Shown here: positions 17,382 to 43,537 of the stretch, piece after piece
How positions within the stretch are numbered: position 1 is the stretch's first letter
How the letters are laid out: every line of letters begins with the position of its first letter
Source of the DNA: an uncultured Pirellulaceae bacterium
GTDB taxonomy: Bacteria > Planctomycetota > Planctomycetia > Pirellulales > Pirellulaceae
Assembly: GCA_937929805.1 (NCBI GenBank)
Contig: CALFUT010000016.1
Span: forward strand, 1-64,000
Length of the DNA stretch: 64,000 bases
Direction: 5' to 3'
The notes under the pieces: generated by a model
The model's input: the letters and a program-made list of their open reading frames with translations, nothing else
The model's database searches: none
What the model was told of the DNA's origin: nothing
Made by a program: the position numbers and the translations under genes

Positions 17382-17552
17382 CCATCACACTCCGTGTGAT
17401 GCCCGCCAAAAGTATGTAGTCATCACACTCCGTGTGATGAACATCACCTGAACATCACATGGAATGTGATGACTACTGACAAACAAGTAAGTAGCCATCA
17501 CACTCCGTGTGATGAACAACAACTTCAACATCACATGGAATGTGATGACTAC
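17378..17552. repeat. Five REP units between gyrA and the RAYT gene
   Basis: Units consist of GTAG, one or two bases, then the palindrome CATCACACTCCGTGTGATG or its variant with ATGGAAT in the centre. Forward units: 17378-17402, 17416-17440, 17491-17515. Reverse units: 17453-17476 and 17529-17552. Forward and reverse units alternate, as in BIME clusters. The first supplies the gyrA stop codon and the last, read on the minus strand, the RAYT stop codon. Confidence 0.9.
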
Positions 17553-18208
17553 TTACTCCAAGTCAAGTACTCCCCCGACTTCAAATTTGCTTTGCTCGGG
17601 TTCTTGGCGATGTAGTCACGATAGTAGTGGAACTGGCGGTCGCTGCGTATCAAATGGTCAAAGCCGTCCTGCTGCCAAAAACGTCCCTTGCGGTGCAAAG
17701 AAGCGTTGATCTTCGTGGCAGTAAATCGCTTCCACGATTCACATTGCTTGAGCATCCCATGCTCGTCTGCGAATGCTGCGAGCAAGTGAACGTGGTTTGG
17801 CATCACAACAAAGTCGGTCAACACGTAGCGATCACCGTCGAAGTACAGCAAGCTATCAGCGACGATCTTTGCAAGCTTCGCATCCCGCAACACACAATCG
17901 CCATGGCATTGATCCAGTTCGTCATGCCAACGCGACGCGAATCTACCTTGGAACTCATGTTGTTTTGATGACCCAAGATTACTCAGTTGAGCCTGCCACT
18001 GATCATGGTTTGGATCAACTCCGTGCGAGCGCAACCAGTCATCGCGCTCTGCCAGCCAAGCCTCGACAACACTCCTTGGCATGGAATCAAACGTGCGAAA
18101 GGTGATAAACGCGAGGCTTCCGGCCTGCGACCAATGCGGCAGTTGCCGCTGCACGACCTCAAAGTCTTCACTAAACTGAAAGAATTGAAGATCCACGGCT
18201 GACCCCAT
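17549..18208 (-). CDS. REP-associated tyrosine transposase (RAYT)
   Basis: A 219-residue Y1 transposase-like protein of the TnpA-REP type. The HUH metal motif is H139-V-H141 in DFVVMPNHVHLLAAF, and the C-terminal part has HYYRDYIAKNPSKANL, where Tyr199 matches the usual catalytic Tyr in the YIxxNPxxA motif. The N-terminus (LPHWSQAGSLAFITFRTFDSMP) matches RAYTs of this group. In the family these single-strand endonucleases recognise and cleave REP hairpins carrying a 5' GTAG. REP clusters lie on both sides (17378-17552 and 18258-18415), so the gene and its substrate are together. The reading frame is complete and its active-site residues are intact, so it may be functional. RAYTs are usually single-copy and domesticated rather than freely mobile. 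Confidence 0.9.
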   Translation of the reverse strand: MGSAVDLQFFQFSEDFEVVQRQLPHWSQAGSLAFITFRTFDSMPRSVVEAWLAERDDWLRSHGVDPNHDQWQAQLSNLGSSKQHEFQGRFASRWHDELDQCHGDCVLRDAKLAKIVADSLLYFDGDRYVLTDFVVMPNHVHLLAAFADEHGMLKQCESWKRFTATKINASLHRKGRFWQQDGFDHLIRSDRQFHYYRDYIAKNPSKANLKSGEYLTWSK

Positions 18209-18434: not shown

Positions 18435-21400
18435 TCACTCGATCAACGACTGCAGCAGGATGCCGCGATCGATGTTGTGATCCACGCCAGGCTCGTAGGC
18501 CATCGGGATCGAGCGATCAAACATAAAGAAGCCGCGACTTCGCTGCACGGTTCCGGTTTCGGTACCGTACTCGATCGGATTAGGTCCATTCATTCGGAAG
18601 TCATTCGTTTCGTTATCCCACTCAAAATAGCCCACCGTCACCCAGATCGCAAAGACGCTGGATCGATTCGTGGCGACGCCACCAAGTCGCTGACGCAGAC
18701 CATTGCGAAAGTATGAATTGCGGTCAGTATTGTTAAACGGGTTAACGACCTGATGGTAGGACAATCGATAGTCGGTTTCATCAGACAGGTTTCCCGATGT
18801 GCCGGGTGTACGATTACTATCGATTCCACTACGGAACAGCCCCACATTTGCAGTTCCCGGCACGGCCCCTCCGGTCGCGACGTAATTGGCTGCCACCGCT
18901 GGTCGAACTGGACTGTCACCCAACGCTGCCCGCCACGCAGCAAAGTCAAATGCCGATGCGTACGGCCCCAACATAATGCCTCCACCGGTGTCTTTTGCAC
19001 CAAGCAACGCGTCCCAAACCGACGCGGAGGAAATAGTGTTCAAGTTGACTTTGCCTGGGTAGCGATAGGTCGAAAGCTCGTCAAATGGCGGTGACAGTCG
19101 ATAGCCGAAATCCGCAAGAGCAGCAGCGTTGTTTAGGACTCCTGATGCTGGAGTTTCCACGTACTCGTCGACACTGGCAAATCGCGACGGCACTTCCACA
19201 AAATCAAACACTTGGTGCATCCGATCCGATTCGATAGAACCGCCGGTCACCGCATCCGCTTCAAAATTCAGCAAATGTGGGAATGCGGCCGCATTTGGGT
19301 GAATGATACCCCTGAGGCTATCGCTCAACGGATTTTCAGAAAACGCATCATGGTTCTTTGCCGAGTACGTATCGCCAATCCCAGCTCCACGTACATCGAA
19401 CACTCGTGTCAGCCAATGAGCCGAAGTGTAGGGAACATTGACCAGCTCATAGCGGTTGGCAAAAGGTCGATTATTCCAAGCCAACCACGGGAAAGGGTTT
19501 GCGTCCCCTGCATTGATCGTTGCATCCGAATAAAAATCGTTCCGTTCGCCAAACGAGTTTTCTAACTCAAAGCCAACGACTTGGCCGGTGAGTGGAGTTC
19601 CGGACGCTGGATCGACATCGCCCAGCACACCCGTCCGCCACAAACGTCGACGTTCCCTCGCGTTGGGGCTATTCTGTTCCGTTCGTTCGTAGGAACTCAA
19701 TGCGTCTTCGCTGTGCGGAGATTCGACCACGGCAGGCATGATTGCAGCCGACGTTTCCACGCTTTGAGGAACCAATCCATTGAAAACAAACAAATCAATC
19801 GCCGAGGAATCAACGATTCGGTAAGGATTCGTTTGAGCGTTGAACGGAATCTCCGGGTTGGCTAGTCGCTGCAGGTAAACGACTCGGTATCCGGAAATCA
19901 AACCACGGTGGTTCAACGGGTGATTGGCCCATTCTGTGTCATCGTCGAAAACTGCTTGATCGATCGGGCGATCAATCGTCAGCGGAGCCCCACCACCGTC
20001 GATAAACTGAAAACCATCATCGATTGCCTGTACATCCGCACCGCCAAATTCCGCGTTTGCCGCCGCCGCGTATCCAGCGACCGGATCAGTAATTCCAAAC
20101 GAGCGCGGCGTCCCGGTGCCATTCTCATTCAACGCGATCGCAACAATATTAGAGACCGGCGTAGTTTCGCCTCCAGCATCTTGGGTAGTAAAAGATTCGC
20201 TGGATGGATCAAGCACAAATCGTTGCGTATTTGCCAAGTCGGTTGGATTGACTGTACCCAACGTTGCGTCAGTATTCGTCCTGCCAATGTAAGTGGTGAA
20301 TGCTCCACCCGATTCTTGTCCCGCACTGCCAATCACCGCATAGCCACCGGGCTCAAGGATTGAGCCATCAATCCCGTTACCAGCCGGAAAATAGACCTTA
20401 TTTCCGTCAAACTGGGGCTGTCCACTCGCGGCACCGGTTGGCTGTACAAAGTACGCGATTCGAACCAACGCAGGCGAGTTGTTCGCGTCTGCGATGGCAT
20501 CATCGACTAACTGCTCGATCATCGGATCGTCACGAACGTCTTCAGCATCGAGCCTCTCCGTGTTGTCACGAACTCTAGGATTGGGCGCGGCAGAATCTGG
20601 GTCAAAAACGACTAATCGCCAGACGGGGTAATCGTCATCCGCAGCATCGCGAGCCGCCAGCTCGATGCCTGTTGTGCCACGGTAAATCTCTTGTGGTTGA
20701 AGAGCACCGGTTCCTGTCGATGAGCCCGGAGGCACAATCCATGGATTGTAAAGCTCAAAAAAGGCGGACGCATTGGGGACTAGACGGCTGTCATAGTCCT
20801 CATCTTTGTCAGTGGTGTCCGTTGTTTTCGAGGCGGTATTTTGACTGGGATTCGCTTCCGTAGCCAAATCCTCCGTCCGGACATCGTGCAACGCGATCGT
20901 TTCAGTGATAAGCAGTTCCGGACGTTCCATCCCCCAAGCAACGAAGTAGTTAGGCTCGGCGGTTGCCCCGAAATTCGGACTGGTGAATCCACCCGCCATC
21001 CCTTCATCGGTAGCTAAATCTCCATCCACTTCCCAGCCGTCAAATGGATTCAGATCGAATTCCATCCCAGTCATAATCGAATCTGGATCGCGGAAGTCGA
21101 CCACGTTGACGCACCATTGAGCCAGCATCCGACGATGTGCCACGATATCCTCTTCTGCGGCTGTACCGCCATTGTCACTGCCATCGAAATCGAAGAAGTC
21201 CGTGGCAGCATTAATCGCGCCGTTGCGAGACGGATTTTCGGTCAGCAGAATCGCCAACACGAACAAACGGCGGGCAAAATTAACGCGGGCAAAATATCCA
21301 GAATCGGTTTCGGTGTCGTCATCGACTCCATTGTTGTCAACATCCAATTTGATGTCGGAGCCATCGATTCCGACCACGAAGTCTTCCACTTCATCTGGCT

Positions 21401-23474
21401 CGTCCACAACCTCATCCCCGTCTGGATCTCTGCCGTCACCGAAGATTCGGTTGATGTTCATCGGCAGACCTCGCCGCACTTCAGGAGATAGCAGCTCACC
21501 CATCACACTGGCGATCTGCGCCGCGTCAGTCAATCCACCGGCAGTTGTCAAAGCATCATACAGCAAACGATTGATATCTTCCGGGATGGCCGGCACTTCA
21601 TAGCTGTGGGTCGTCAGCAGCTTCCGCAAAAACAATTTTTCATCATCGGTAAGCGTGCCACCGCTGCCCAGCACGTCGTGCAGAACCGTATTCGCGTCGC
21701 TCTCATCACCATCCAGTCGAGCATTCAAAAGGGCCGAGTCTCGATCGCCGGGCCGTAGGACACGTTCCAGTTCATCGACTGTAAAAATACTATCGTTGCT
21801 TTCACCAGACCCCAGCAGGTCCACCTCATAAGGCGAATTGACCACCGTATTGACCGCTGCATCCGGCGCAAGAGCGACGGCAGGCATCGTAGCTTCAAAC
21901 CATTCCGTGGCTGTTGGGAATGATTTGAAAAAGCCAAGGCCAGCTCGCCCATTCAAGTCGAACGGCGACGAAAAATGATTGCCCAGCAATCCATCGTCAA
22001 TCGTTCCATTGGCCGCCAAACCATCCGGATAGCCCGCGAAACGGTACCGGGACCGGTCATCAAAACCGTCCAGTCCGGCGAAGCTCTCAGCGTTCAGCTG
22101 ATTTCGATTCGCGTAACGTGCTTCCAGCAACAAAGTTGCGTTAGGTTGCGATTGCAAAACGGGGGCTAGGCTGATTTCCGCTGGCCCAAAACCGAGCCCT
22201 TGCGGGAACTGAGCCGGCGTGATTGGTGGTCCGTAAACATCGGTCGTGTCAATCACAAGGCTGTCCCGCGAGTTTCCATGGGCATTGATATTCAACCGCC
22301 CATCCATGTCCAGAATCAGGAAGGAAACCACCGGTTTGATGTATTCGCCATCGGGTGTCGAACGAACCTGCATTCCGGTATCAATCCAAATACCATCGTT
22401 GATTCCATCATTGTCGTTGTCGACGTGGCGAGGCCCCAGCGCAGCAAAAGCTTTGAAACTCGTATGCTCTGCGACACCGTCACGCACGCCACCGAAACTG
22501 GGTGATACTTCCATGTCGTTATCATTCAAAACGTCGTCTCCGCTTACGTCAACAAGTCTGGCCAAGGCCATGTTTTGAAAGTCAAAAGCGTCCCAAGGCT
22601 CATTGGTCGATTGAGAGTTGGGTACTTCCGCACCCGGCACAGCGCGCACAAAGTATTCTTCCTGCATGTCCCCTCTGTCCTGCTGAACCCGGTTTGGACT
22701 TTGTGCGGAGGCATCGAAGGCGGCCTCGTCAACAGCCACGGTCGAGTCGAAACGCCCGGCACCCGTACCCGCGAAGGCTTTGCCGTTAATGATGACTTTC
22801 GCGTCAGCCATGTCGTCTAGCGGCCCAGACAGGTCGTGCGTCCCGCCAAGCGGATGGATAATCAAGTCGGTGTCACCGCCACCACCGGTGACGCCCAGAG
22901 GAAGGTGTTGGATGATACGCGCGGTCAATCCTTGAAAATCACCGGTCACAAATGTCAACACTTGTCCCGCGTAATGGCCGGGAATGCTATTTGGAATTCG
23001 AGTCAAATCCTCCCGAGCACCCGTCAGCAAGTTAACGGTGTCCGGCGGAGAGGCGCTTAACGTCACCACTAGAAAAGGCGTGTCGTTTGGAGTCGCACCA
23101 CCGTAAGTTTGAGGCACTCCATCAATCGTTGCTTCAATCCCGAAACCGTACATGTCGCCCAGTAGGTCGTGGCCGCGAAGGGGATTGCTCTCGTTGTCCA
23201 AACTTGGTCCGCGGACGGCTTCCAAGAATGACTGCATGACCAACTGCTGACCTTCCTCACGAGTCACCGCCCCCGCGTTGACGCCGCCGCTCGCGTTGCG
23301 ACGCTTGGCCGCGCGCAGGTAGTCGTTGCTGACGACCACGAACGTGGTGCCCATCAACAAGAACAGCACAATCATGCTGATCACAAACAACAGCGTGACG
23401 CCACGTCGACGAGACGAAGCTGAATTCGGAGGTCGGAATTCAGAGGTCGGAACTTGATTTTGGCGGACGTTCAT
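18435..23474 (-). CDS. Giant GspK-like pseudopilin-type protein
   Basis: 1679 residues from the ATG at 23474 (a TTG at 23504 is the upstream alternative). A prepilin-like start SRRRGVTLLFVISMIVLFLLMG gives a cleavage site after Gly25; position +5 of the mature protein is Phe instead of Glu, which is characteristic of GspK, the minor pseudopilin at the tip of the type II secretion pseudopilus. The rest is far longer than usual GspK (about 320) and is rich in Asp/Asn loops such as DNDNDGINDG, which could bind calcium. Near the C-terminus YPGKVNLNTI resembles the helix-hairpin segment of GspK. The leader contains SEFRPPNSAS, encoded by a heptamer repeat. It is the last gene of the secretion cluster. 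Confidence 0.7.
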   Translation of the reverse strand: MNVRQNQVPTSEFRPPNSASSRRRGVTLLFVISMIVLFLLMGTTFVVVSNDYLRAAKRRNASGGVNAGAVTREEGQQLVMQSFLEAVRGPSLDNESNPLRGHDLLGDMYGFGIEATIDGVPQTYGGATPNDTPFLVVTLSASPPDTVNLLTGAREDLTRIPNSIPGHYAGQVLTFVTGDFQGLTARIIQHLPLGVTGGGGDTDLIIHPLGGTHDLSGPLDDMADAKVIINGKAFAGTGAGRFDSTVAVDEAAFDASAQSPNRVQQDRGDMQEEYFVRAVPGAEVPNSQSTNEPWDAFDFQNMALARLVDVSGDDVLNDNDMEVSPSFGGVRDGVAEHTSFKAFAALGPRHVDNDNDGINDGIWIDTGMQVRSTPDGEYIKPVVSFLILDMDGRLNINAHGNSRDSLVIDTTDVYGPPITPAQFPQGLGFGPAEISLAPVLQSQPNATLLLEARYANRNQLNAESFAGLDGFDDRSRYRFAGYPDGLAANGTIDDGLLGNHFSSPFDLNGRAGLGFFKSFPTATEWFEATMPAVALAPDAAVNTVVNSPYEVDLLGSGESNDSIFTVDELERVLRPGDRDSALLNARLDGDESDANTVLHDVLGSGGTLTDDEKLFLRKLLTTHSYEVPAIPEDINRLLYDALTTAGGLTDAAQIASVMGELLSPEVRRGLPMNINRIFGDGRDPDGDEVVDEPDEVEDFVVGIDGSDIKLDVDNNGVDDDTETDSGYFARVNFARRLFVLAILLTENPSRNGAINAATDFFDFDGSDNGGTAAEEDIVAHRRMLAQWCVNVVDFRDPDSIMTGMEFDLNPFDGWEVDGDLATDEGMAGGFTSPNFGATAEPNYFVAWGMERPELLITETIALHDVRTEDLATEANPSQNTASKTTDTTDKDEDYDSRLVPNASAFFELYNPWIVPPGSSTGTGALQPQEIYRGTTGIELAARDAADDDYPVWRLVVFDPDSAAPNPRVRDNTERLDAEDVRDDPMIEQLVDDAIADANNSPALVRIAYFVQPTGAASGQPQFDGNKVYFPAGNGIDGSILEPGGYAVIGSAGQESGGAFTTYIGRTNTDATLGTVNPTDLANTQRFVLDPSSESFTTQDAGGETTPVSNIVAIALNENGTGTPRSFGITDPVAGYAAAANAEFGGADVQAIDDGFQFIDGGGAPLTIDRPIDQAVFDDDTEWANHPLNHRGLISGYRVVYLQRLANPEIPFNAQTNPYRIVDSSAIDLFVFNGLVPQSVETSAAIMPAVVESPHSEDALSSYERTEQNSPNARERRRLWRTGVLGDVDPASGTPLTGQVVGFELENSFGERNDFYSDATINAGDANPFPWLAWNNRPFANRYELVNVPYTSAHWLTRVFDVRGAGIGDTYSAKNHDAFSENPLSDSLRGIIHPNAAAFPHLLNFEADAVTGGSIESDRMHQVFDFVEVPSRFASVDEYVETPASGVLNNAAALADFGYRLSPPFDELSTYRYPGKVNLNTISSASVWDALLGAKDTGGGIMLGPYASAFDFAAWRAALGDSPVRPAVAANYVATGGAVPGTANVGLFRSGIDSNRTPGTSGNLSDETDYRLSYHQVVNPFNNTDRNSYFRNGLRQRLGGVATNRSSVFAIWVTVGYFEWDNETNDFRMNGPNPIEYGTETGTVQRSRGFFMFDRSIPMAYEPGVDHNIDRGILLQSLIE

Positions 23475-23504
23475 GGGACTGACTCGAACGATTATGAAAT
23501 TCAA

Positions 23505-23816: not shown

Positions 23817-25232
23817 CTAAAGCGTGATCGAGTCCTCGAAAACGTTAACCACGTCTCGCAAGTGAACGATGTAGGTTTTGATTCGTGTAGAACCTCCCGA
23901 ACCATCGGGACCAAAGTCAAAGGCAGGTCCGTCAAGCGTCAGGCTAGGGAGATTGGCCCCTCCTGCTAATCCGGTGCCCTCGTCGATATTGGCGACACGG
24001 TAAAACTGAATCTGCTGGCGGGCCTCGGTCACACCTCGGAAGCCTGGCGGCAGCCGATTGATCATCATTACCCAGTCGTCGCGACGAACACCGGGAGCCT
24101 CTGGCGTTCCAGCCACGTCGAGAGCATCTTGATTCCACTCGGGCGGACTGTTTGCATCCCAATCAACTGGGCATAAAACGATCTCGCCACCTTGGAAGCC
24201 ACTCGGCAGCCCCCCAGGAATCGCTCCTCGCGTCGAAACCATCGCCGAAAGCATCAGCGATCTTAGGTTGACATTGGTATTAGGATCTACCACATCAGCT
24301 TGGTTACTGGGCCGCGGAATTCCAACGGGATTGTTGTAAAGGTTGAACGTCCGATCGGCGAAGACCAAGGTCACGCGGCGATAGATGCCTCCTAATTGGT
24401 CGTCACCCGGGATGATGAACATCGCCTGAGACAATCGGCCCCCGTCAGTCTGACGACGAAGAATATTCCCAGCTGGATCGCGATCAAAAATCTGGAACGG
24501 TTGACCCGCTAAATCCCCATCGTCCGTGTCAAACTTGCTGAAATTGAGTGCATCGGTTGATTGGAACAAACGCTGAGCAAGCGAGGCCGTCATCACCGCC
24601 CTGCTGCTAGCCCCACTAGTCAGGCTGGCTCGTTGAATCCGCAAGTTACGGGGCAACGCCGGATTGACCTGACCGAAAAACGGATAGGTGGCCGACGCAG
24701 TTCCATCATTCTTTAACAACCGGCCCCGCATCCTTCCGGCGTCAGGGTCAGCCGCGAGGATTCCGTCACCAAAAAATCCAAAGTTGTTCAGCACTTCCGC
24801 GTCCACCTGATCGCCCACGTTCGTATCCAAACTAGGGGCAGCCGCGTCGTTCGCGTCGATCCAAATGGGATCAATCATCAGTGCGAAGCCAAGGGGTGAA
24901 CTGAGTGTCTGTGTTCTTAAGGTTGCAGGGTCTCCGGGAACTCGATTCGCACGACCGCGAACCCAGCGGTCAGGATCATTGAATCCCATGACTTCGAACG
25001 TGGCACGTGAGTTGATGGCTAGGTTGCGAGCGTCATCCAGATCCAAACCCGATTGAGCTTGTTTGACCGCAAACGGGATCAAGACCAACGTGCCGAACAC
25101 GCCGATCATCGCCACCACCACCGCCGTCATGACCTCGATGATCGAGATGCCGGAGCGGCTTTGACGCGAATGCGGAGTGCGGAATGCGGAATGCGGAATT
25201 TCGCGGTTCGAGTTTTCAGTTAGTTTGAGCAT
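23817..25232 (-). CDS. Prepilin-type minor pseudopilin
   Basis: 471 residues. The class III prepilin signal reads SRSGISIIEVMTAVVVAMIGVFGTLVLI with predicted cleavage after Gly28 and Glu at +5 (E33). The membrane helix is followed by a large globular part with no recognised domain, including DDQLGGIYRRVTLVFADRTFNLYN and VNVFEDSITL at the end. The leader EIPHSAFRTPHS is encoded by tandem 7-bp repeats at 25172-25203. It lies between two other prepilin genes in the secretion cluster, so it probably acts as a minor pseudopilin (GspI/J-like position in the operon). Homology beyond the N-terminus was not recognised. Confidence 0.75.
   Translation of the reverse strand: MLKLTENSNREIPHSAFRTPHSRQSRSGISIIEVMTAVVVAMIGVFGTLVLIPFAVKQAQSGLDLDDARNLAINSRATFEVMGFNDPDRWVRGRANRVPGDPATLRTQTLSSPLGFALMIDPIWIDANDAAAPSLDTNVGDQVDAEVLNNFGFFGDGILAADPDAGRMRGRLLKNDGTASATYPFFGQVNPALPRNLRIQRASLTSGASSRAVMTASLAQRLFQSTDALNFSKFDTDDGDLAGQPFQIFDRDPAGNILRRQTDGGRLSQAMFIIPGDDQLGGIYRRVTLVFADRTFNLYNNPVGIPRPSNQADVVDPNTNVNLRSLMLSAMVSTRGAIPGGLPSGFQGGEIVLCPVDWDANSPPEWNQDALDVAGTPEAPGVRRDDWVMMINRLPPGFRGVTEARQQIQFYRVANIDEGTGLAGGANLPSLTLDGPAFDFGPDGSGGSTRIKTYIVHLRDVVNVFEDSITL
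25172..25203. repeat. Heptamer array inside a prepilin leader
   Basis: Units of GCGGAAT and GCGGAGT follow each other with a 7-base period. Read on the minus strand they encode IPHSAFRTPHS, residues about 12-22 of the protein, all before the cleavage site. Confidence 0.8.
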
Positions 25233-25274
25233 GAAAGAGAGTTTTCAAAGGGAGGGTGAGGCTCCGTCCGAGCC

Positions 25275-25384: not shown

Positions 25385-27331
25385 TTATTGACTCGCACTC
25401 TGGCCAGTCGAGGCAGTGCGGCGAGCTTCCGTGACTAGCTCGCCCAGTGTCGTTCCACCGGCTGCGAGTGGCGGGTTGTTGTAACCGATGTTGACTCCAC
25501 CTGACGTATTGCTGATCGTCACCCATAAGTTGGTTTCATCGTAAAGAGGGCGTGCATCCGTTCGCTGCTCCACTTCAGATGGCATCACAAACAATGCCAA
25601 CGGGCCGGTGATAGGCTGCGGAGAATCCAACCCAAGCGACGCCGTATTATTCCAATTTCCACGGTAAGTCCGAACCGATGAAACGCCTCCTGTTGAATCG
25701 AACAAGACATCGATTCGTGAATACTGAGCCGCCAACCTAGCTCTTTCCGCTGTAGAAGTTTGGTCGGCTTCCAAACCCGGTCTCATGACTTCGAAGAAAA
25801 CTGGGCGTACCTCGTGTGTCGAAAGCACCGACACTTCACCGGAACCATCTTCCATCGGAACAACCGGCCCCGACAATCGCAGGTCAACGGTATAACCTGG
25901 TGGTAGATCCGTGATGCTGGAACGAAGAAGTTTGGGTTGACGCTCGATGACATAGCTGACGGAAGTCCCTGCGGACGGCAGTGGCGGCTGAGTCGGTTTG
26001 CGATCGAGAACCAGCTGCAAACTTCCCCCACTAGGCAAGGGGGAGACATTTGTGATTTGATATGCGACCGAAGATGTAACGGTAACAGGCATCGGGGGAC
26101 TGCCAGCTTGGTTGAATCGAACAAAATCACCCGCTCGAACCACATTCTCCTCAGGCGTTGACTGATCGTATTCCAATGGCAAAGGAATGAGCAGTGCTCT
26201 TCCGCCGCCGAAAGTGCTTGTCACGGTAGCCAGAGTATCGTCATCCCCAATGAAGTTCGGGACGGCTCGCGAAATGGAGATGGTGGATACACCAAATTGG
26301 ACTCCATTCACGTCAACCATGTTTGGGTTGCGAAACAACGTGACGGCGGCGGCACCGTCGCGGCGAGCACGATCACTGGCTTCGGCAAATTTGCTGCCGA
26401 CGACCCGAGCGGCTTCACGGATGCCACGATCCTGATTGACCGTTCGCAATCGAGGCAACATCAACGCGGTCAAGGCAGCCATGATCGAAATCACGACCAG
26501 CAGTTCGATGAGGGTAAATCCTGATTTGCCCGCATCATTTTTGTAGGCTGGATCCGACGCTCGGGAGGGGAAGGCTCCGTCCGCACCCGTTCCATGGCTA
26601 AGCGTATTGGTACGCGCCGCTCGGGAGGGGAAGGCTCCGTCCGCACCCATTCCATGGCTAAGCGTACTGTTACGCGCGGCTTGGGAGGGGAAGGCTCCGT
26701 CCGCACCCATTCCATGGCTAAGCGTATTGTTACGCGCGGCTCGGGCGGAGCCTCGCCCTCCCGCTGAGCCTCGAACCTTCGTTGACGCTGGCAACTTCAA
26801 ACCCGCACCCGTTTGCTGGTTGCGTGCTTCGCTACGCATGACTTGGGAGGGGAAGGCTCCGTCCGCACCCATTCCATGGTTAAGCGTATTGGTACGCGCG
26901 GCTCGGGAGGGGAAGGCTCCGTCCGCACCCGTTCCATGGCTAAGCGTACTGGTACGCGCGGCTCGGGCGGAGCCTCGCCCTCCCGCTGAGCCTCCAACCT
27001 TCGTTGACGCTGGCAACTTCAAACCTGCACCCGCTTGCTGGTTGCGTGCTTCGCTACGCATGACTTGGGAGGGGAAGGCTCCGTCCGCACCCATTCCATG
27101 GCTAAGCGTACTGGTACGCACGGCTTGGGAGGGGAAGGCTCCGTCCGCACCCGTTCCATGGCTAAGCGTACTGGTACGCGCGGCTCGGGCGGAGCCTCGC
27201 CCTCCCGCTGAGCCTCGAAACTTCGTTGATGCTGTCAACTTCAAACCCGCGTTGAGATTGAAGAACGAGCGTTGGCCTTGGTCAACTGGCTGCGTTGTTG
27301 CTTTTGTTTGATTCGATTGAGTCATCATCAT
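25385..27331 (-). CDS. Prepilin-type protein with a 271-residue repeat-built leader
   Basis: 648 residues. The class III prepilin motif AGKSGFTLIELLVVISIMAALTALMLP is at residues 267-293, with cleavage predicted after Gly271 and Glu at +5 (E276); the following GIREAARVVGSKFAEASDRARRDG resembles GspH/FimT proteins. Residues 1-30 look like an original leader. Residues about 50-260 are repeats: seven 20-residue units containing GADGAFPS, arranged in a 74-residue higher-order unit. Translation from 27331 is supported by AGGAG four bases before ATGATGATG, and by the 4-base overlap with the upstream stop codon. The nearest later in-frame ATG would still leave about 44 residues of leader. The mature protein is about 377 residues, a normal size for the cluster. 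Confidence 0.8.
   Translation of the reverse strand: MMMTQSNQTKATTQPVDQGQRSFFNLNAGLKLTASTKFRGSAGGRGSARAARTSTLSHGTGADGAFPSQAVRTSTLSHGMGADGAFPSQVMRSEARNQQAGAGLKLPASTKVGGSAGGRGSARAARTSTLSHGTGADGAFPSRAARTNTLNHGMGADGAFPSQVMRSEARNQQTGAGLKLPASTKVRGSAGGRGSARAARNNTLSHGMGADGAFPSQAARNSTLSHGMGADGAFPSRAARTNTLSHGTGADGAFPSRASDPAYKNDAGKSGFTLIELLVVISIMAALTALMLPRLRTVNQDRGIREAARVVGSKFAEASDRARRDGAAAVTLFRNPNMVDVNGVQFGVSTISISRAVPNFIGDDDTLATVTSTFGGGRALLIPLPLEYDQSTPEENVVRAGDFVRFNQAGSPPMPVTVTSSVAYQITNVSPLPSGGSLQLVLDRKPTQPPLPSAGTSVSYVIERQPKLLRSSITDLPPGYTVDLRLSGPVVPMEDGSGEVSVLSTHEVRPVFFEVMRPGLEADQTSTAERARLAAQYSRIDVLFDSTGGVSSVRTYRGNWNNTASLGLDSPQPITGPLALFVMPSEVEQRTDARPLYDETNLWVTISNTSGGVNIGYNNPPLAAGGTTLGELVTEARRTASTGQSASQ
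26557..27230 (-). repeat. 60-bp tandem units in a 222-bp higher-order array, inside a gene
   Basis: Seven 60-bp units carry the GGCTCCGTCCGCACCC motif followed by TTCCATGG(C/T)TAAGCG and a variable CGCG linker, in groups of three, two and two. Groups are separated by a spacer with the GGCGGAGCCTCGCCCTCCCG motif and a GTTGACGCTGGCAACTTCAAA stretch; corresponding points recur exactly 222 bp apart (26771, 26993, 27215). Both periods are multiples of three, so the frame is kept. The units differ at scattered positions, mainly at single bases. Confidence 0.92.
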
Positions 27332-28368
27332 TCCACTCCTCGCGAAATACGTTCGACTACGGGCAATGACTCGGGGATCCGACTTGAACCCACCACGATT
27401 TGCAAATCACCAAGTGCCATCGGGTAGCGTGGGTCAAGCGGAACAAAACCGTTGCTGTTTGAGCGAACAACATTGTCAACGACCGTAGCGCCAAATTGCT
27501 CGATGTCGAACAGCAGCGGATCGCCCCACGCATCAACAACTTCTGGGTAAATGTCATCATCCGTATTGCCGATCGCAGAGTTACCCAGCAGTTCGACCGC
27601 CGACTGACCATCGATCTGAATCGAGCGAAGGATTTCATGCAGGTACTCGCCGGGCAGATCCAGTTCGTTTGTATCTACAGGGGGCGTGGTCGCATCCACC
27701 TGCCGCCGGAATTTTCTGGCCCCACCTGAGGTCACGCTGTTTAACACCGTCCTCAAATCCGTCGGAGGAGAACCAACTTGGGCTGTGTAATTTGCGTCAA
27801 GCCATTCACCAAACGACGGCCCCATCATTCCAAACTCACCTTGATTTTTCGCAAGATTCGTTTGTGCAAACGTACTATCGGCGGACAAACCAAAATTCGA
27901 CCCAAACTGACCGGCGAATTCGTTTTCAGAATATTCAATCGGTTGACCGGTAGGAAATTGTCTCACTGGCCGCGGCATTTCCGAATCGATCAATGCCATC
28001 AAGACTTGACGGCGAAGGTACTTGAGCTGCAACCGATCGTTCCTTGGAGCCGTTCCACCATCAATCGCGATACGGTTCATTCCCACAAACGCGTCCAAAA
28101 CCCGATTTGAGATCGGCAACCTTCGTACTTCGTAGTCTTCCATCTGAAGTTGCAAGATCGAGGTGATCTGGCTGATGCGAGCCTGAGTGGCTGAGATCTT
28201 GGCGTCGTTGGACGCTCCGGCCAGCATGGTCAGCGACATCGCGGTCAGCACACCAATGATCGCAATCACAATCAACAACTCGACAAGTGTGAAGGCCTTT
28301 TTCAAATTCGGAATCCGGAATTCGGAATTCGGAATTTCAGGTTTCGAGTTGTGGAAAAATTGAATCAT
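27328..28368 (-). CDS. Prepilin-type pseudopilin, GspG-like N-terminus
   Basis: 346 residues. Leader MIQFFHNSKPEIPNSEFRI is followed by PNLKKAFTLVELLIVIAIIG, with cleavage after Ala25 (Ala in place of the usual Gly) and Glu at +5. After the membrane helix comes SATQARISQITSILQLQMEDYEVRRLP, the helical spine common to pseudopilins. The rest is a globular part with QFPTGQPIEYSENEFAGQFG and a C-terminal YPEVVDAWGDPLLFDIEQFG, reminiscent of the D-x-W-G-x-P segment of GspG major pseudopilins. Its stop overlaps the next gene's start by four bases, so the two are coupled. Leader residues 11-20 come from a heptamer array at 28301-28340. Confidence 0.78.
   Translation of the reverse strand: MIQFFHNSKPEIPNSEFRIPNLKKAFTLVELLIVIAIIGVLTAMSLTMLAGASNDAKISATQARISQITSILQLQMEDYEVRRLPISNRVLDAFVGMNRIAIDGGTAPRNDRLQLKYLRRQVLMALIDSEMPRPVRQFPTGQPIEYSENEFAGQFGSNFGLSADSTFAQTNLAKNQGEFGMMGPSFGEWLDANYTAQVGSPPTDLRTVLNSVTSGGARKFRRQVDATTPPVDTNELDLPGEYLHEILRSIQIDGQSAVELLGNSAIGNTDDDIYPEVVDAWGDPLLFDIEQFGATVVDNVVRSNSNGFVPLDPRYPMALGDLQIVVGSSRIPESLPVVERISRGVE
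28301..28340. repeat. Heptamer array inside a prepilin leader
   Basis: Tandem (A/T)TCGGAA units with single-base changes. On the minus strand they encode KPEIPNSEFRIPN of the prepilin leader just before the cleavage site. Confidence 0.8.
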
Positions 28369-28633: not shown

Positions 28634-28718
28634 GGCAGCCCTCACACGGATGTGATGCGGATCGGCCATTACACGGAGTGTGAAAGAGGCAGGACATCAC
28701 ACGGAGTGTGATGGCTAC
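28634..28718. repeat. Degenerate REP cluster 3' of a prepilin gene
   Basis: One intact reverse unit (28695-28718, ending GGCTAC) and two decayed ones (around 28634-28657 and 28667-28684). It sits ten bases beyond the stop codon of the gene at 28728, the same placement as at 25316-25377. Confidence 0.75.
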
Positions 28719-28727
28719 TTACGCTTG

Positions 28728-29840
28728 TTACTCGTTTTCAATGACAAACAGCTCCAGTCGACCGTCGGCGAAGTTTGCCATGTTGTCATAGCCAAATTTG
28801 ATAAAGTTCGAATCGGTCGAAAGGGCAAAGGCCTGCAGATGCTCGACATCGCCCGCTCCAGAAGGGTTTAGTGGTACGCCGGGGTTTCCGTCCAAACCAA
28901 AACTAATCAACTGAAAGGTTTGAGGGTTTGCGAAGTCGTCTTGCACCAGATCTTGTCCAGGCGTTCGACCTCGAGTGTCGCGCTCGCCTCCGGGGATCTG
29001 AGTGATGTATGCGAAAGGAGCAATGTTGTACGAAGCCGCATCTCGGTAGCGATAAATCAAATCACCATTGCTTGGGCCGTTAGGTTGTTTGTAGGCAGCG
29101 ACAGTTGCAAACTCAGTACCAACGTTGATCAAATCAAGCTCACGGAAGTCGACTGCCCCGTTTACACGAGTGACATCGGTTGACGCATCGCTAATGTCTG
29201 CGGTCGGGTCAGGGCCACTTCCATAGACAAGTTGATCAGGCTGAAATTCAAATCTCACATCCCGCTCGATCTCAACATCCCCGCTCGGTGTCGGGATAAA
29301 ACGCGCAGGTCCATTAAATGGCTCGATCAAAGTCGGACTGCCGCCTGTAATAGGAAATTGCTTGCTCTTGCACAGCCCCGACAACCAGAAGACCAACGAA
29401 CTCTGCTGATCTAAGTGACGTCCGATCTTGTTCCACCAGACGACAATTCGCACGTCTCCACCGACAAAACTGTTCCTTTCCTGATGACTTGGAGCAATGC
29501 GATTCAGGTAGCGAAGAAAATCGCTTACACCCGGATCAGTAGCAACTGTGGCCGTCACATTAGGAAACTGCTCAAAGCTTGGCGGGTAAAAACCGTACTC
29601 GGTGCGAAAGGATTCGATCGCTTGCTCGATCTGAACCATCTCAGTCCGCATCGCAAGTTCGCGAGCAGAACTCATGGCTCCATTGATCGCCGGTAGCAAT
29701 AGGCCGACCAAGATGCCGATGACCGTGATCACGATCAGTAGCTCGACCAAGGTGAAACCAAGGCGGAATTCGGAATTCGGAATTCGGCGTGCGGAATGTT
29801 TCAAATTCGAAGTTCGGAAGTCAGAGGTCGGAGTATTCAT
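28728..29840 (-). CDS. Prepilin-type major pseudopilin candidate
   Basis: 370 residues. PNSEFRLGFTLVELLIVITVIG gives cleavage after Gly28 and Glu at +5, the most canonical pilin motif of the cluster. The helix continues SARELAMRTEMVQIEQAIESFRTEYGFYPPSF, the pattern of GspG-like major pseudopilins, where a Tyr/Phe-Tyr-Pro-Pro segment follows the spine. The C-terminal part contains NPQTFQLISFGLDGNPGVPLN, resembling the calcium-site region of GspG (GxDGxxGG), and then DVEHLQAFALSTDSN. It is directly downstream of gspF, where the main pseudopilin gene is often found. The leader residues 14-27 are again encoded by heptamers (29762-29800). Confidence 0.78.
   Translation of the reverse strand: MNTPTSDFRTSNLKHSARRIPNSEFRLGFTLVELLIVITVIGILVGLLLPAINGAMSSARELAMRTEMVQIEQAIESFRTEYGFYPPSFEQFPNVTATVATDPGVSDFLRYLNRIAPSHQERNSFVGGDVRIVVWWNKIGRHLDQQSSLVFWLSGLCKSKQFPITGGSPTLIEPFNGPARFIPTPSGDVEIERDVRFEFQPDQLVYGSGPDPTADISDASTDVTRVNGAVDFRELDLINVGTEFATVAAYKQPNGPSNGDLIYRYRDAASYNIAPFAYITQIPGGERDTRGRTPGQDLVQDDFANPQTFQLISFGLDGNPGVPLNPSGAGDVEHLQAFALSTDSNFIKFGYDNMANFADGRLELFVIENE
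29762..29800. repeat. Heptamer array inside a prepilin leader
   Basis: Three to four GGAATTC units and GCGTGCGGAATG in tandem with a period of seven. On the minus strand they encode ARRIPNSEFRL, ending right at the cleavage-site Gly. Confidence 0.8.
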
Positions 29841-30061: not shown

Positions 30062-31462
30062 TCATCCTGTTAGGCCGCCGATGATGCTGATCAATGGCAT
30101 GAACAGCGAGGCCACGATGAACAGCACGACCAGACCAAGGAAGATGATCATCAACGGTTCGATCATTTTCAGCATGCCATCGGTTAGGGTTTCCACTTCT
30201 TGTTCGTAGTAGTCGGCAACCTTGTACAGCATAACGTCCAGTTCACCGGTTTCTTCACCGACGGACACCATGTTGATTACAAGATCTTCGACGACTGCCT
30301 TTTTGTAATTCAGGTAGTACCACGCGACGCCAAGGATACTCAGCACGCCACAGCCGTAAGCGACTCCCTGCCACATTTCTGGATCGACAAACAGCACCAT
30401 CAGCGGCGGCAGTGACATCACGGCACAGAAGAAGAACGCGGCAACCGGATGGAAGCCGGGGAACGAATTTTCCTTCATCGGCACGGCAATCGTTTCACCC
30501 GCGCGAATGGAGTCGGTTACTTTGCTGTAAAGTTTTTCGTACATCGCGTTGCCGGATGTCTCGCGGGTAATGGTCAGTCCCTCGATGATCGGAACACCGC
30601 TGGCGACCAACGCACCGAGCGTTCGTGTGGTTCGGGCGAGGTTGGCCTTTTCGACCAGCTTGCCCATGATCGGCAGCTTCAGCAGGAACAGGTGCCAGCC
30701 CATCCGACCGGCCTTGAATTTACAGACCAGCGTCACAAACAAGACCATTCCGATTGGGATCAACGGGAACAAGAACCACAACTGACAGACTCGGCTTGAG
30801 ATCTTCATCAGTAAGACGGTCATGGCGGGCAGTTCGATGCCAAATTCCTCGAACATTTCTTGGAACTGAGGAATGATGAACAACATGATGAAGGTCAGGA
30901 TACCGATCGTGAAAAACACGACCATGACCGGATACATCATGGCTCCGATGACTTTATTTTTTAGTCCTTGGGTTCGTTCTTTGAACTCGGCCAATCGCTG
31001 CAGAATATTTTCCAGCGATCCACCGGCTTCACCGGCCTTGATCATGTTCACGTACAGCCGATCGAATGCTCGAGGAGCTTTCGCCATCGCCTCGGACAAC
31101 GAAGCACCGCCCTCGATTTCGTCGCAGACGTCAATCAACGAGTTCTTCAAGGCACCCGGTTTGGCTTGGTCTTCTAGGATCTTCAGACTGCGAAGAATCG
31201 GCAGTCCCGCGTCTTGCAAGATGGAAAGCTGACGCGTGAACGTCACGATCTTTTTGCCACTGGCACCGCCAAGTGCGAATGTCTTTCGACCCTTGCCGCT
31301 GGAGTCGCCTTTTTTCTTGGCGGCCTTCTGTTGCGTGATTCGCGTGACGAAGTATCCCATCTCGCGGATGGTATCCTGTGCCTCATCCTGAGTGTTGGCT
31401 TCGATGACATCGCGAATTTCCTGACCCTGCGGGTCCATCGCTTCAAATTGAAAAGTAGGCAT
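30062..31462 (-). CDS. gspF: Type II secretion/type IV pilus inner-membrane platform protein
   Basis: 466 residues with AGGGA about ten bases before the ATG. Two T2SSF domains are visible, the first at about 72-195 (TFTRQLSILQDAGLPILRSLKIL, with GGSLSEAMAKAP-like spacing) and the second at about 270-400 (ARTTRTLGALVASGVPIIEGL, with VSVGEETGELDVML). Three to four membrane helices follow each domain pattern, including VVFFTIGILTFIMLFII and MIEPLMIIFLGLVVLFIVA. The N-terminus (FQFEAMDPQGQEIRDVIEA) is the usual cytoplasmic start. The protein anchors the assembly ATPase to the pseudopilus base. It lies between the ATPase gene and the prepilin genes. Confidence 0.93.
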   Translation of the reverse strand: MPTFQFEAMDPQGQEIRDVIEANTQDEAQDTIREMGYFVTRITQQKAAKKKGDSSGKGRKTFALGGASGKKIVTFTRQLSILQDAGLPILRSLKILEDQAKPGALKNSLIDVCDEIEGGASLSEAMAKAPRAFDRLYVNMIKAGEAGGSLENILQRLAEFKERTQGLKNKVIGAMMYPVMVVFFTIGILTFIMLFIIPQFQEMFEEFGIELPAMTVLLMKISSRVCQLWFLFPLIPIGMVLFVTLVCKFKAGRMGWHLFLLKLPIMGKLVEKANLARTTRTLGALVASGVPIIEGLTITRETSGNAMYEKLYSKVTDSIRAGETIAVPMKENSFPGFHPVAAFFFCAVMSLPPLMVLFVDPEMWQGVAYGCGVLSILGVAWYYLNYKKAVVEDLVINMVSVGEETGELDVMLYKVADYYEQEVETLTDGMLKMIEPLMIIFLGLVVLFIVASLFMPLISIIGGLTG

Positions 31463-31746: not shown

Positions 31747-33465
31747 TTAACCATCAAGGACCGTTTCACGAATGACTTCTTCGGCGGTGGTGGTTCCGTC
31801 GAACGCGAATCGGATGCCCATGTCTCGCAGTAGCTTCATGCCCTTCTTTTGAGCAGCGTCTCGCAAGACGTCGGTCGCCACGTTTTCCATGATCAAGGCT
31901 CGCAGTTCGTCGTCCATGATCATCAGTTCGAACAGGCCAATCCGGCCCTTGTATCCAGTGTTGTTGCAGTTGCCGCAGCCGGCACCTCGGTAAAACGATT
32001 TGCCTTCGCATTCTTCGGGCGTCAAACCAAGATCGATCCGCATGTCTTCGGTGACCTCGTTTGGCTCACGGCACTCGGGACAGATGCGACGCACGAGCCG
32101 TTGCGCCAAAATCGCTTCGACCGTGGCGGTGATCAGGAAGGTGGGAACTCCCATATCCTTCATCCGAGTCACCGTGCTGGGAGCGTCGTTGGTGTGCAAG
32201 GTGCTGAACACGGTGTGCCCAGTCAGCGAGGCTTGGACCGCGATCTCTGCGGTTTCGGTGTCTCGAATCTCGCCGACCAAAATCTTGTCCGGATCCTGAC
32301 GCAGAATCGCTCGCAACGCGGACGCGAAGGTCACGCCGATATCGTGGTCGATCGGAATCTGAACAATCCCGTCAATGTCGTACTCGACCGGATCTTCGGT
32401 TGTGACCAGTTTGTCTTCGATCGTGTTCAGTTCGTTCAAGGCCGAATACAAAGTCGTTGTCTTGCCGGAACCGGTGGGGCCCGTCACCAAAATAATTCCG
32501 TTCGGCTTATCGATCACCTCGCGGAACTCTTCCATGATCGCTTCGTCCATCCCGATGTTCCCCAAATCCAGCGACACCACGCTGCGATCGAGAACTCGAC
32601 AAACGACGCTTTCGCCAAACATGGTTGGCAGCACACTGACTCGCAAATCGACCGGGTGCCCACCCACCGTCAGCTCGATCCGGCCGTCCTGTGGCAGACG
32701 ACGTTCTGAAATATTCAGGTTGGCCATCACCTTGATTCGGGTCGTAATCGCAAACGCGAGGTGACGTGGCGGCGGAACCAGTTCGAACAACACGCCGTCC
32801 GCCTTGATGCGGATGCGGAACTCGTCTTCGAACGGTTCGAAGTGAATATCGCTGGCGTGTTCTTTAATGGCTTGCAGGAGCACGATGTTCAACAGCTTGC
32901 GAACCGGAGCACTGTCGGCCAGTTCGGTCACGTCGCTCAAGTTGATCGGGCCACCACCGAGCAGCTTCTCTGACGCGGCTTTGAGTTCTTCGTCCGACTG
33001 CAGGTCGTTGATGATTTTCTCGATGCTCTCGACGTCTTCGTTGAAGAACTTATCGATCCCCTTAAGAATCTGAGCCTCCGACGCGACCAACAACGCGATC
33101 TCGTAACCCAAGAAGCGACGCAATTCGTCCTGCATCGCCAAGTTCTGAGGATCACAGGTTGCCAGCGTCAGCCGATTGTCTTCCAGCTTCAACGGGATGA
33201 CTCGATACAACTGAGCCATCGAATCCGAAATCGCTTCCCGAGCTTCTGGTGGTGGCGTCACTCCGTCGATGTCAACGGTTTTCAAACCGAACTGCTCGCC
33301 CAACGCTTGGATCAGTTCTTCGTCCGAGACCAAGCCCATGTCTTCGGCAATCCGACCGATCAACTGGCCCGGATTCTGACTCTGTTCTTCGACCAGCATT
33401 TCCAGCTGATCATCCGAAATGAATCCAAGGTCGACAAAAATTTGACCGAGTTTACGAACGGCCAT
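31747..33465 (-). CDS. gspE: GspE/PilB-type assembly ATPase 1
   Basis: 572 residues. N-terminal MshEN-type region (RKLGQIFVDLGFISDDQLEMLVEEQ), then the ATPase core with HASDIHFEPFEDEFRIRIKADG, Walker A GPTGSGKTTTLYSAL, the Asp box around TTEDPVEYDIDGIVQI, Walker B ILVGEIRDTETAEIAV and the His box HTVFSTLHTNDAP. A four-cysteine zinc motif CPECRE...CGNCNNTGYKGR is intact. It powers pseudopilus assembly in the cytoplasm. It is upstream of gspF in the same direction, and shares strong similarity with the second copy at 35323. Confidence 0.93.
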   Translation of the reverse strand: MAVRKLGQIFVDLGFISDDQLEMLVEEQSQNPGQLIGRIAEDMGLVSDEELIQALGEQFGLKTVDIDGVTPPPEAREAISDSMAQLYRVIPLKLEDNRLTLATCDPQNLAMQDELRRFLGYEIALLVASEAQILKGIDKFFNEDVESIEKIINDLQSDEELKAASEKLLGGGPINLSDVTELADSAPVRKLLNIVLLQAIKEHASDIHFEPFEDEFRIRIKADGVLFELVPPPRHLAFAITTRIKVMANLNISERRLPQDGRIELTVGGHPVDLRVSVLPTMFGESVVCRVLDRSVVSLDLGNIGMDEAIMEEFREVIDKPNGIILVTGPTGSGKTTTLYSALNELNTIEDKLVTTEDPVEYDIDGIVQIPIDHDIGVTFASALRAILRQDPDKILVGEIRDTETAEIAVQASLTGHTVFSTLHTNDAPSTVTRMKDMGVPTFLITATVEAILAQRLVRRICPECREPNEVTEDMRIDLGLTPEECEGKSFYRGAGCGNCNNTGYKGRIGLFELMIMDDELRALIMENVATDVLRDAAQKKGMKLLRDMGIRFAFDGTTTAEEVIRETVLDG

Positions 33466-43313: not shown

Positions 43314-43435
43314 GCCGAGCACTGTTCGAAGCTTGGCAGGGAGGGCCGAGGCTCCGCCCGAGCCATACGCAGATGATTCGCGCATTCATTGGATTTGGGT
43401 GCGGGCGAAAATGATTCGCGTGTCGGTCGATTTGG

Positions 43436-43537
43436 GTGCGGGCGGAGCCTTACCCTCCCGAGCATCGTCGCCAACTTCAAGTCGATTTGGGTGCGGGCGG
43501 AGCCTTACCCTCCCGAGCATCGTCGCCAACTTCAAGT
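43436..43537. repeat. 55-bp tandem duplication of the GGCGGAGCCT repeat
   Basis: Two copies with GTGCGGGCGGAGCC followed by TTACCCTCCCGAGCATCG and GTCGCCAACTTCAAG, starting at 43436 and 43491. A truncated third begins near 43397. The second copy ends six bases before the stop codon of the sigma factor gene at 43543. It is the reverse orientation of the 231-302 and 26557-27230 family. Confidence 0.85.

Follow-up and report, generated by a model that had tools for sequence, protein, structure and literature searches.

Our analysis has shown that the 64,000-nucleotide stretch of DNA studied here (the window) carries a 648-aa prepilin in which a 231-codon tandem repeat lies ahead of the cleavage motif. 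This confirms the array described in an earlier sequence-only reading of the same DNA and partly supports the giant, repeat-built leader proposed there. The feature is real, and it is most likely a translated leader of 269-271 residues built by a dispersed palindromic repeat. Our overall model is that an element was inserted in frame and grew in tandem, and that the product is translated and cleaved off as the leader of a pseudopilin in a type II secretion/type IV pilus-like operon; we assign this explanation a probability of about 0.7. The host is a marine bacterium whose genome is a 4.2 Mb draft in 74 contigs (95.6% complete), with the window on contig C16. Named relatives in the genome collection are MAGs of Pirellulaceae/Planctomycetaceae, several of them Mariniblastus, and a scan of this collection with A2 returned 14 loci.

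The gene is the third pilin gene of a minus-strand cluster:

18435..23504, minus strand: large last ORF of the cluster, with no family match in domain searches
23817..25232, minus strand: downstream pilin-like ORF, with a weak N_methyl match (15.4 bits, below cut-off)
25385..27331, minus strand: prepilin/pseudopilin gene with the giant leader (648 aa, ATG start; ORF and domain search)
26459..26527, minus strand: N_methyl (PF07963) cleavage/methylation motif (domain search)
27328..28368, minus strand: upstream pilin-like gene (N_methyl; ORF and domain search)
28728..29840, minus strand: GspG-like pilin gene of the cluster (N_methyl; GspG model at 52.6 bits, below its cut-off)
30062..31462, minus strand: GspF/PilC-type inner membrane protein (T2SSF domain)
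31747..33465, minus strand: GspE/PilB-type ATPase (T2SSE domain)

The N_methyl domain was found at residues 269-291 of the product with 26.3 bits against a cut-off of 21.2. The predicted cleavage motif, KSG^FTLIELL, has the form expected of a prepilin, with Gly/Ala before the cut and then a hydrophobic N_methyl stretch with Glu at +5. The earlier reading recognized this motif correctly but let it begin at residue 267; the Gly before the cut is residue 271 (G271^FTLIE). No stop or frameshift interrupts the 648 codons, and the mature part retains the conserved columns of its relatives. The predicted structure of the pilin (pLDDT 71.6) has a helix at 3-54 followed by strands. A PDB fold search with this model gave no match at E <= 0.001 and no pilin among the best 50 matches listed, and the GspH equivalog (TIGR01708) matched residues 270-327 only, at 29.9 bits, missing its cut-off of 80 bits. 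Because the GspH cut-off failed and no solved structure matched significantly, the GspH-like naming is limited to the N-terminus, where the protein appears GspH-like; based on the motif and the predicted long first helix, the mature protein is probably a pilin. An Rfam scan of the window at gathering thresholds gave tRNA only.

The leader and its array are laid out as follows:

26519..27331, minus strand: leader-coding segment, 271 codons from ATG to Gly271 (sequence and orthologue comparison)
26558..27250, minus strand: in-frame tandem array, 693 bp = 231 codons (period 60 within 222 bp)
27128..27187, minus strand: unit 1 (RAARTSTLSHGTGADGAFPS), this and the following by unit comparison
27068..27127, minus strand: unit 2 (QAVRTSTLSHGMGADGAFPS)
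26906..26965, minus strand: unit 3
26846..26905, minus strand: unit 4
26684..26743, minus strand: unit 5
26624..26683, minus strand: unit 6
26564..26623, minus strand: unit 7

Tandem Repeats Finder reported 26623-27250 with period 222 (2.8 copies, 95% match), and 26558-26745, 26845-26967 and 27055-27189 with period 60. Seven full 60-bp units, each coding for 20 residues in one common frame, are set within 222-bp blocks, and two degenerate unit-like stretches (QVMRSEARNQQ) were recognized by eye between full units. The seven 20-residue units had been counted correctly in the first reading, whereas its figure of 210 residues has to be replaced by 231 codons; its repeat interval, 26557-27331, contains the array but also takes in 27 codons next to the start that are not repeat. 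Stops are absent from the array in the sense frame, and the two remaining forward frames have 4 and 11. On the antisense strand one of three frames is also stop-free through the array, and an antisense ORF of 234 codons (26607-27311, plus strand) spans nearly all of it. As in known prepilins, the leader is hydrophilic and positively charged (net charge +20) and has no hydrophobic stretch, its best 19-residue Kyte-Doolittle mean being 0.26 versus 2.4 at the motif. The array lies within a 99,948-bp contig and its blocks differ at several positions, although a draft assembly may misrepresent the number of copies in a tandem array.

Seven columns vary among the seven units, six of them second codon positions and one a third, and pairwise comparison of units counted 56 nonsynonymous versus 6 synonymous codon differences, a result that rests on these seven columns in units that may be homogenised. 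The unit peptide thus appears not to be visibly conserved, as would be expected for a discarded segment. Two simpler arguments for coding were rejected. That the periods are multiples of three, as had been stressed previously, is a weak argument and no proof of coding, since copies elsewhere are often spaced likewise: by hand count, among the matches listed, 19 of 30 spacings between neighbouring copies in the same orientation, less than 250 bp apart and outside contig C16, are also multiples of three (4 of these 19 in the coding array of L168, described below). An open unit is likewise no proof of coding, as roughly two thirds of the dispersed copies are open in any given frame (stop-free in 29, 30 and 29 of 45 across the three frames).

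The start of translation is central to this interpretation, and two features bear on it:

27328..27331, minus strand: 4-nt overlap (ATGA) between the start and the stop codon of the preceding pilin gene (sequence and ORFs)
26648..26650, minus strand: last in-frame start (ATG) before the motif, inside the array, from which the leader would be 44 residues

The 4-nt ATGA overlap with the upstream ORF, described previously, is real. Three in-frame ATGs stand in a row at the start, with an AGGAG 4 nt upstream of the first and 7 nt upstream of the second; the leader is therefore 269-271 residues. Neither ATG, GTG nor TTG occurs in the last 43 codons before the cleavage site. The last start codon is thus inside the array, and expression of the gene from a standard start codon would therefore include translation of at least one unit. 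The conserved stop-start overlap, the absence of start codons from these 43 codons and the order-wide frame test described below favor the previously proposed start at 27331, and we infer that the array-coded leader is translated from there (or from 27328/27325).

Orthologues were compared first within the genus (G001-G027), where the gene is present in 13 of 27 genomes; a renewed search of the other 14 gave N-terminal motif matches only. The comparison of leader lengths that had been called for was run, and the best orthologues of the 13 genomes have leaders of 10-26 residues (one match per genome, with further matches in G015 and G026 left out). The orthologue in G015 has the same 4-nt overlap and a leader of 15 residues. 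The insertion cannot be dated because the orthologue is absent from G010, the closest genome by one gene (67% identity) and by the element.

For the order, 196 genomes were searched with an alignment of 17 mature orthologues, and 157 had a match at E <= 1e-12. The 90 best-scoring loci were taken, a non-random sample from the top of the score list, and 81 were parsed. G061, G225 and G149 were left out of the 90 because their match did not start at model position 1, and in place of the planned G186, G096 was chosen for its long open frame (spacer, 13.7 codons). Nine of the 90 loci were dropped by the motif pattern; their spacers are 9.7-21.7 codons, so none reaches the test of spacers of at least 40 codons. 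Three of the 81 had no upstream ORF on the available stretch. From the upstream stop to the mature N-terminus the median is 33 codons (n=78), and the largest value, 270, is that of the present genome. An in-frame ATG or GTG with a 4-nt overlap occurs in 22 of the 81, the present one included. In 66 orthologues a start lies between -20 and +40 nt relative to the upstream stop; the leaders would have at least 30 residues in 30 of these and at least 60 in 7. The earlier expectation of leaders under 30 residues thus holds for the best match of each of the 13 genus genomes but fails in the order.

Of 27 spacers of at least 40 codons, 20 are open throughout in the motif frame versus 5 and 5 in the other forward frames (Fisher p = 1.6e-6), and of 13 spacers of at least 60 codons 9 versus 2 and 2 (p = 0.0014), with the caveat that related genomes are not independent and that true short leaders slightly raise the count for the motif frame. 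The motif frame is closed in the other seven of the 27, including G193 (199 codons) and G207 (103); G072 was scored as closed despite a start 20 nt after the stop. Some stop-to-motif gaps across the order can be non-coding, as seen in G193 and G207. By eye, the leaders of different genera have no evident similarity.

The array unit is part of an imperfect palindrome of roughly 83 bp. With one mismatch allowed, its 15-base core has 200 matches in the genome (91 forward, 109 reverse) versus 1 for a reversed-pattern control. Folded with DNA parameters, a dispersed copy forms a long hairpin and does better than its shuffles (z -4.1), and so does the head of a block in the gene (z -3.7); the one 60-bp unit tested has lost the left arm and folds no better than shuffles (z 0.48). 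The copies outside the array that had been reported were confirmed at 230-295 and 43350-43537. They lie outside long ORFs and overlap short TTG/GTG/ATG ORFs of 114-144 codons. A further copy lies just downstream of the gene:

25260..25274, plus strand: further element copy (core) in the gap just 3' of the gene (core search)

Of 109 distinct exact core copies on the stretches covered, 14 are in ORFs of at least 120 codons with a coding-like flank score of at least 0.1, including three in the leader array and four in L168; on this dicodon scale the training genes of the window score 0.23-0.60, and the gene itself is among them, so that its own score is not independent. By this crude measure the remaining copies look intergenic. 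An earlier codon-usage scan of the copies, likewise trained on ORFs of the window that include this gene, was too noisy and was superseded by the dicodon score. A DNA match to a dispersed copy was found in 7 of 59 other genomes, with many long ones in G010. Taken together, the comparisons agree with the earlier proposal that an intergenic repeat has come to lie in a coding region, and the dispersed palindrome would have entered the leader in frame and grown there in tandem.

The element is also found in other genes of the same genome, the survey of which rests on part of the copies. In L004/L121 (G000:C26:28393-28602), a gene which we take to be BatD-like, three in-frame units share the peptide frame of the leader array (GADGAFPSRA) and lie ahead of a signal-like hydrophobic stretch. 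A similar G-rich RBS is present in its four closest orthologues, in which 27-52 codons separate the ATG from the match, versus 145 here; GTG codons downstream of the array might also be used as starts. The membrane protein L168 (G000:C31:7124-7306) has five 42-bp in-frame units before a Sec-like signal, and its relative in G010 (L305) has different in-frame repeats at the same place. L172 probably carries one copy in the n-region of a Sec-like signal, and L061 (G000:C1:145871), by eye a helicase-like protein, probably has an element-derived stretch in a linker. In L150, L158 and L016 the copies look to be upstream of the true start. Among the 30 of 33 N_methyl matches in the genome that were read, no other lies more than 63 codons from the first possible start to the domain. 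Y1_Tnp has 10 matches in the genome, and nothing ties them to the 83-bp element. The names used here for Sec signal n-regions, BatD-like, helicase-like and GspK-like proteins and RAYT for Y1_Tnp are presumptive.

Predicted leaders built of repeats also occur in other genomes. In G037, which belongs to another family, the orthologous gene has a 183-residue leader whose DNA matches 88 places in that genome, itself included; 4 of 7 dispersed copies have no stop in register over most of the element. All four consecutive pilins of the G037 cluster (L292, C33:33500-43500) have leaders sharing these repeats, with the motif at residues 246, 163, 199 (183 from the overlap start) and 93. All but the first have a start codon only a few bases from the stop of the preceding gene. 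For the orthologous gene, the one pilin of the four covered by this check, a shorter leader could result from a GTG located 26 codons ahead of the mature end. The G134 leader has a few dispersed copies (7 matches, itself included), and those of G053 and G100 have heptamer-type repeats, as judged by eye.

Based upon these observations, we propose that a palindrome of roughly 83 bp entered the gene in frame, downstream of the start codon and ahead of the site of prepilin cleavage, and that recombination would have multiplied its right half (the 60-bp units) and then the 222-bp block. The overlap with the upstream stop would keep the start codon in place; because the start is tied to this stop, the insert would be translated and form part of the hydrophilic, positively charged cytoplasmic leader. 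Such a long positively charged leader would not contradict known pilin topology. Prepilin peptidase is predicted to cut after Gly271 and leave the mature protein unaffected, and the removed leader would be free to drift and grow. In-frame insertions may be tolerated because their product is removed, and the apparent absence of purifying selection among the units fits such tolerance. We infer the cleavage after Gly271, the history of the array and the tolerance alike. More tentatively, and with somewhat less than even confidence, we suggest that removable leaders (prepilin leaders, Sec n-regions) are a favored sink for in-gene mobile palindromes in Planctomycetes. Stop-start overlaps in pilin operons would lock the start upstream, so that every insert that survives is in frame and turns into leader, independently in several families with unrelated repeats and with leaders of up to about 270 residues.

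The most serious alternative, although an unlikely one, is that translation starts inside the array. Several in-frame ATGs are present there, and the likeliest, at 26650, would give a 44-residue leader of one and a half units with the rest as untranslated spacer. The GTG in the orthologous G037 gene is in line with this, as is the warning, in the available part of the source, that many N-terminal REPs may be extragenic with translation starting downstream (PMC3733652). Nevertheless, by eye no Shine-Dalgarno-like sequence precedes 26650, in contrast to the AGGAG before 27331; the stop-start overlap recurs among orthologues, and whole long spacers are open more often in the motif frame than in the others. 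Even an internal start would require leader residues coded by the repeat. We consider it improbable that the gene is dead or unexpressed and the array a product of pseudogene drift, or that the array is an assembly artefact. The genome is a draft in 74 contigs, and an expanded array at the gene start could hamper expression; conserved columns in the mature part and 648 codons free of stops and frameshifts argue against a pseudogene, and the position of the array within a 99,948-bp contig with differing blocks against an artefact.

It is about equally improbable that the array acts at the RNA level, its hairpins setting pilin stoichiometry and its translation being incidental. Elements do sit between co-directional pilin genes, and full elements fold better than shuffles as single-stranded DNA (the z values of -4.1 and -3.7 above); the one amplified 60-bp unit tested, which has lost the left arm, does not, so that it is not the whole hairpin that was multiplied. 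Least likely of these is that the long leader has been selected as a domain, perhaps to delay membrane insertion or to bind a partner. The recurrence of long leaders in the order would suit such a role, whereas leaders of different genera have no evident similarity by eye, the units differ mainly by nonsynonymous changes and 10-26 residues suffice in relatives within the genus. We therefore retain the translated, cleaved and repeat-built leader as our main reading.

Several known systems resemble this one, as far as they are described in the available parts of the sources cited. In type IV pilins the leader stays cytoplasmic, the hydrophobic stretch being the part that enters the membrane; cleavage by prepilin peptidase, after Gly or Ala, takes place on the cytoplasmic face (PMC10191384), as predicted here. 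Long leaders are known from pilins of the T4b type and of S. sanguinis (PMC10191384), and one of 26 residues was called unusually long for an archaellin (PMC12448462); unlike these, the present leader has about 270 residues and is built of a dispersed repeat. Similar to the RPEs of Rickettsia, which are short palindromes of 105-146 bp or about 150 bp, also intergenic, and fused in frame in seemingly functional genes (PMC2229807, PMC10969869), the present element is a dispersed palindrome that also lies in open frames of predicted genes. It differs in forming 231 codons of tandem units ahead of a predicted cleavage site. REPs have been reported in Planctomycetes, and those in ORFs are high-copy palindromes that favor the N-terminus over the end, the larger REP-coded regions having 43-82 residues (PMC3733652); Y1_Tnp (RAYT-type) genes are present here too. 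In contrast to the 20-40 bp, GTAG/CGTC-tagged REPs, our element is about 83 bp and has no consistent tag, with CGTC before 9 of 85 copies and GTAG near 1 of 85. In the RU-2 MITE of Yersinia a mobile repeat likewise forms part of a predicted signal peptide; that peptide is rich in hydrophobic residues, whereas in the present gene it is the hydrophilic part, ahead of the hydrophobic stretch, that the repeat extends (PMC2229807).

In titles and abstracts of open-licence PMC texts, to which the search was limited, no report of repeat-built prepilin leaders or of this element was found. In-frame palindromic inserts are known already; their length, tandem growth and recurrence in leaders look new. 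If the array is indeed translated, prepilin processing would seem to tolerate leaders some ten times the usual length of 10 to 30 residues. The orthologues read would then offer a natural series of leader lengths, from about 6 to 271 residues, for the limits of prepilin peptidase and Sec/SRP, and cleaved leaders would be places where selfish repeats live in coding DNA at little cost. Gene callers may trim the starts of such long leaders, and the broader pattern of repeat-built leaders in Planctomycetes deserves a proper survey.

Other repeats were observed in the window as well. Heptamer-type repeats occur in the leaders of the other pilin-like ORFs of the cluster (28305-28336, 29763-29789, 25168-25199 and 23422-23452) and code for peptides such as IPNSEFR, a stop-free 7-bp repeat giving the same peptide whatever the frame. 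A second palindromic repeat family (CACACTCCGTGTGATG) lies between genes at 17410-17553 and about 28640-28715; HTPCAV, a type of peptide that this family could encode, occurs in the leader of L060 (G049). A weak Y1_Tnp match of 23.4 bits is present at 17603-17827 on the minus strand.
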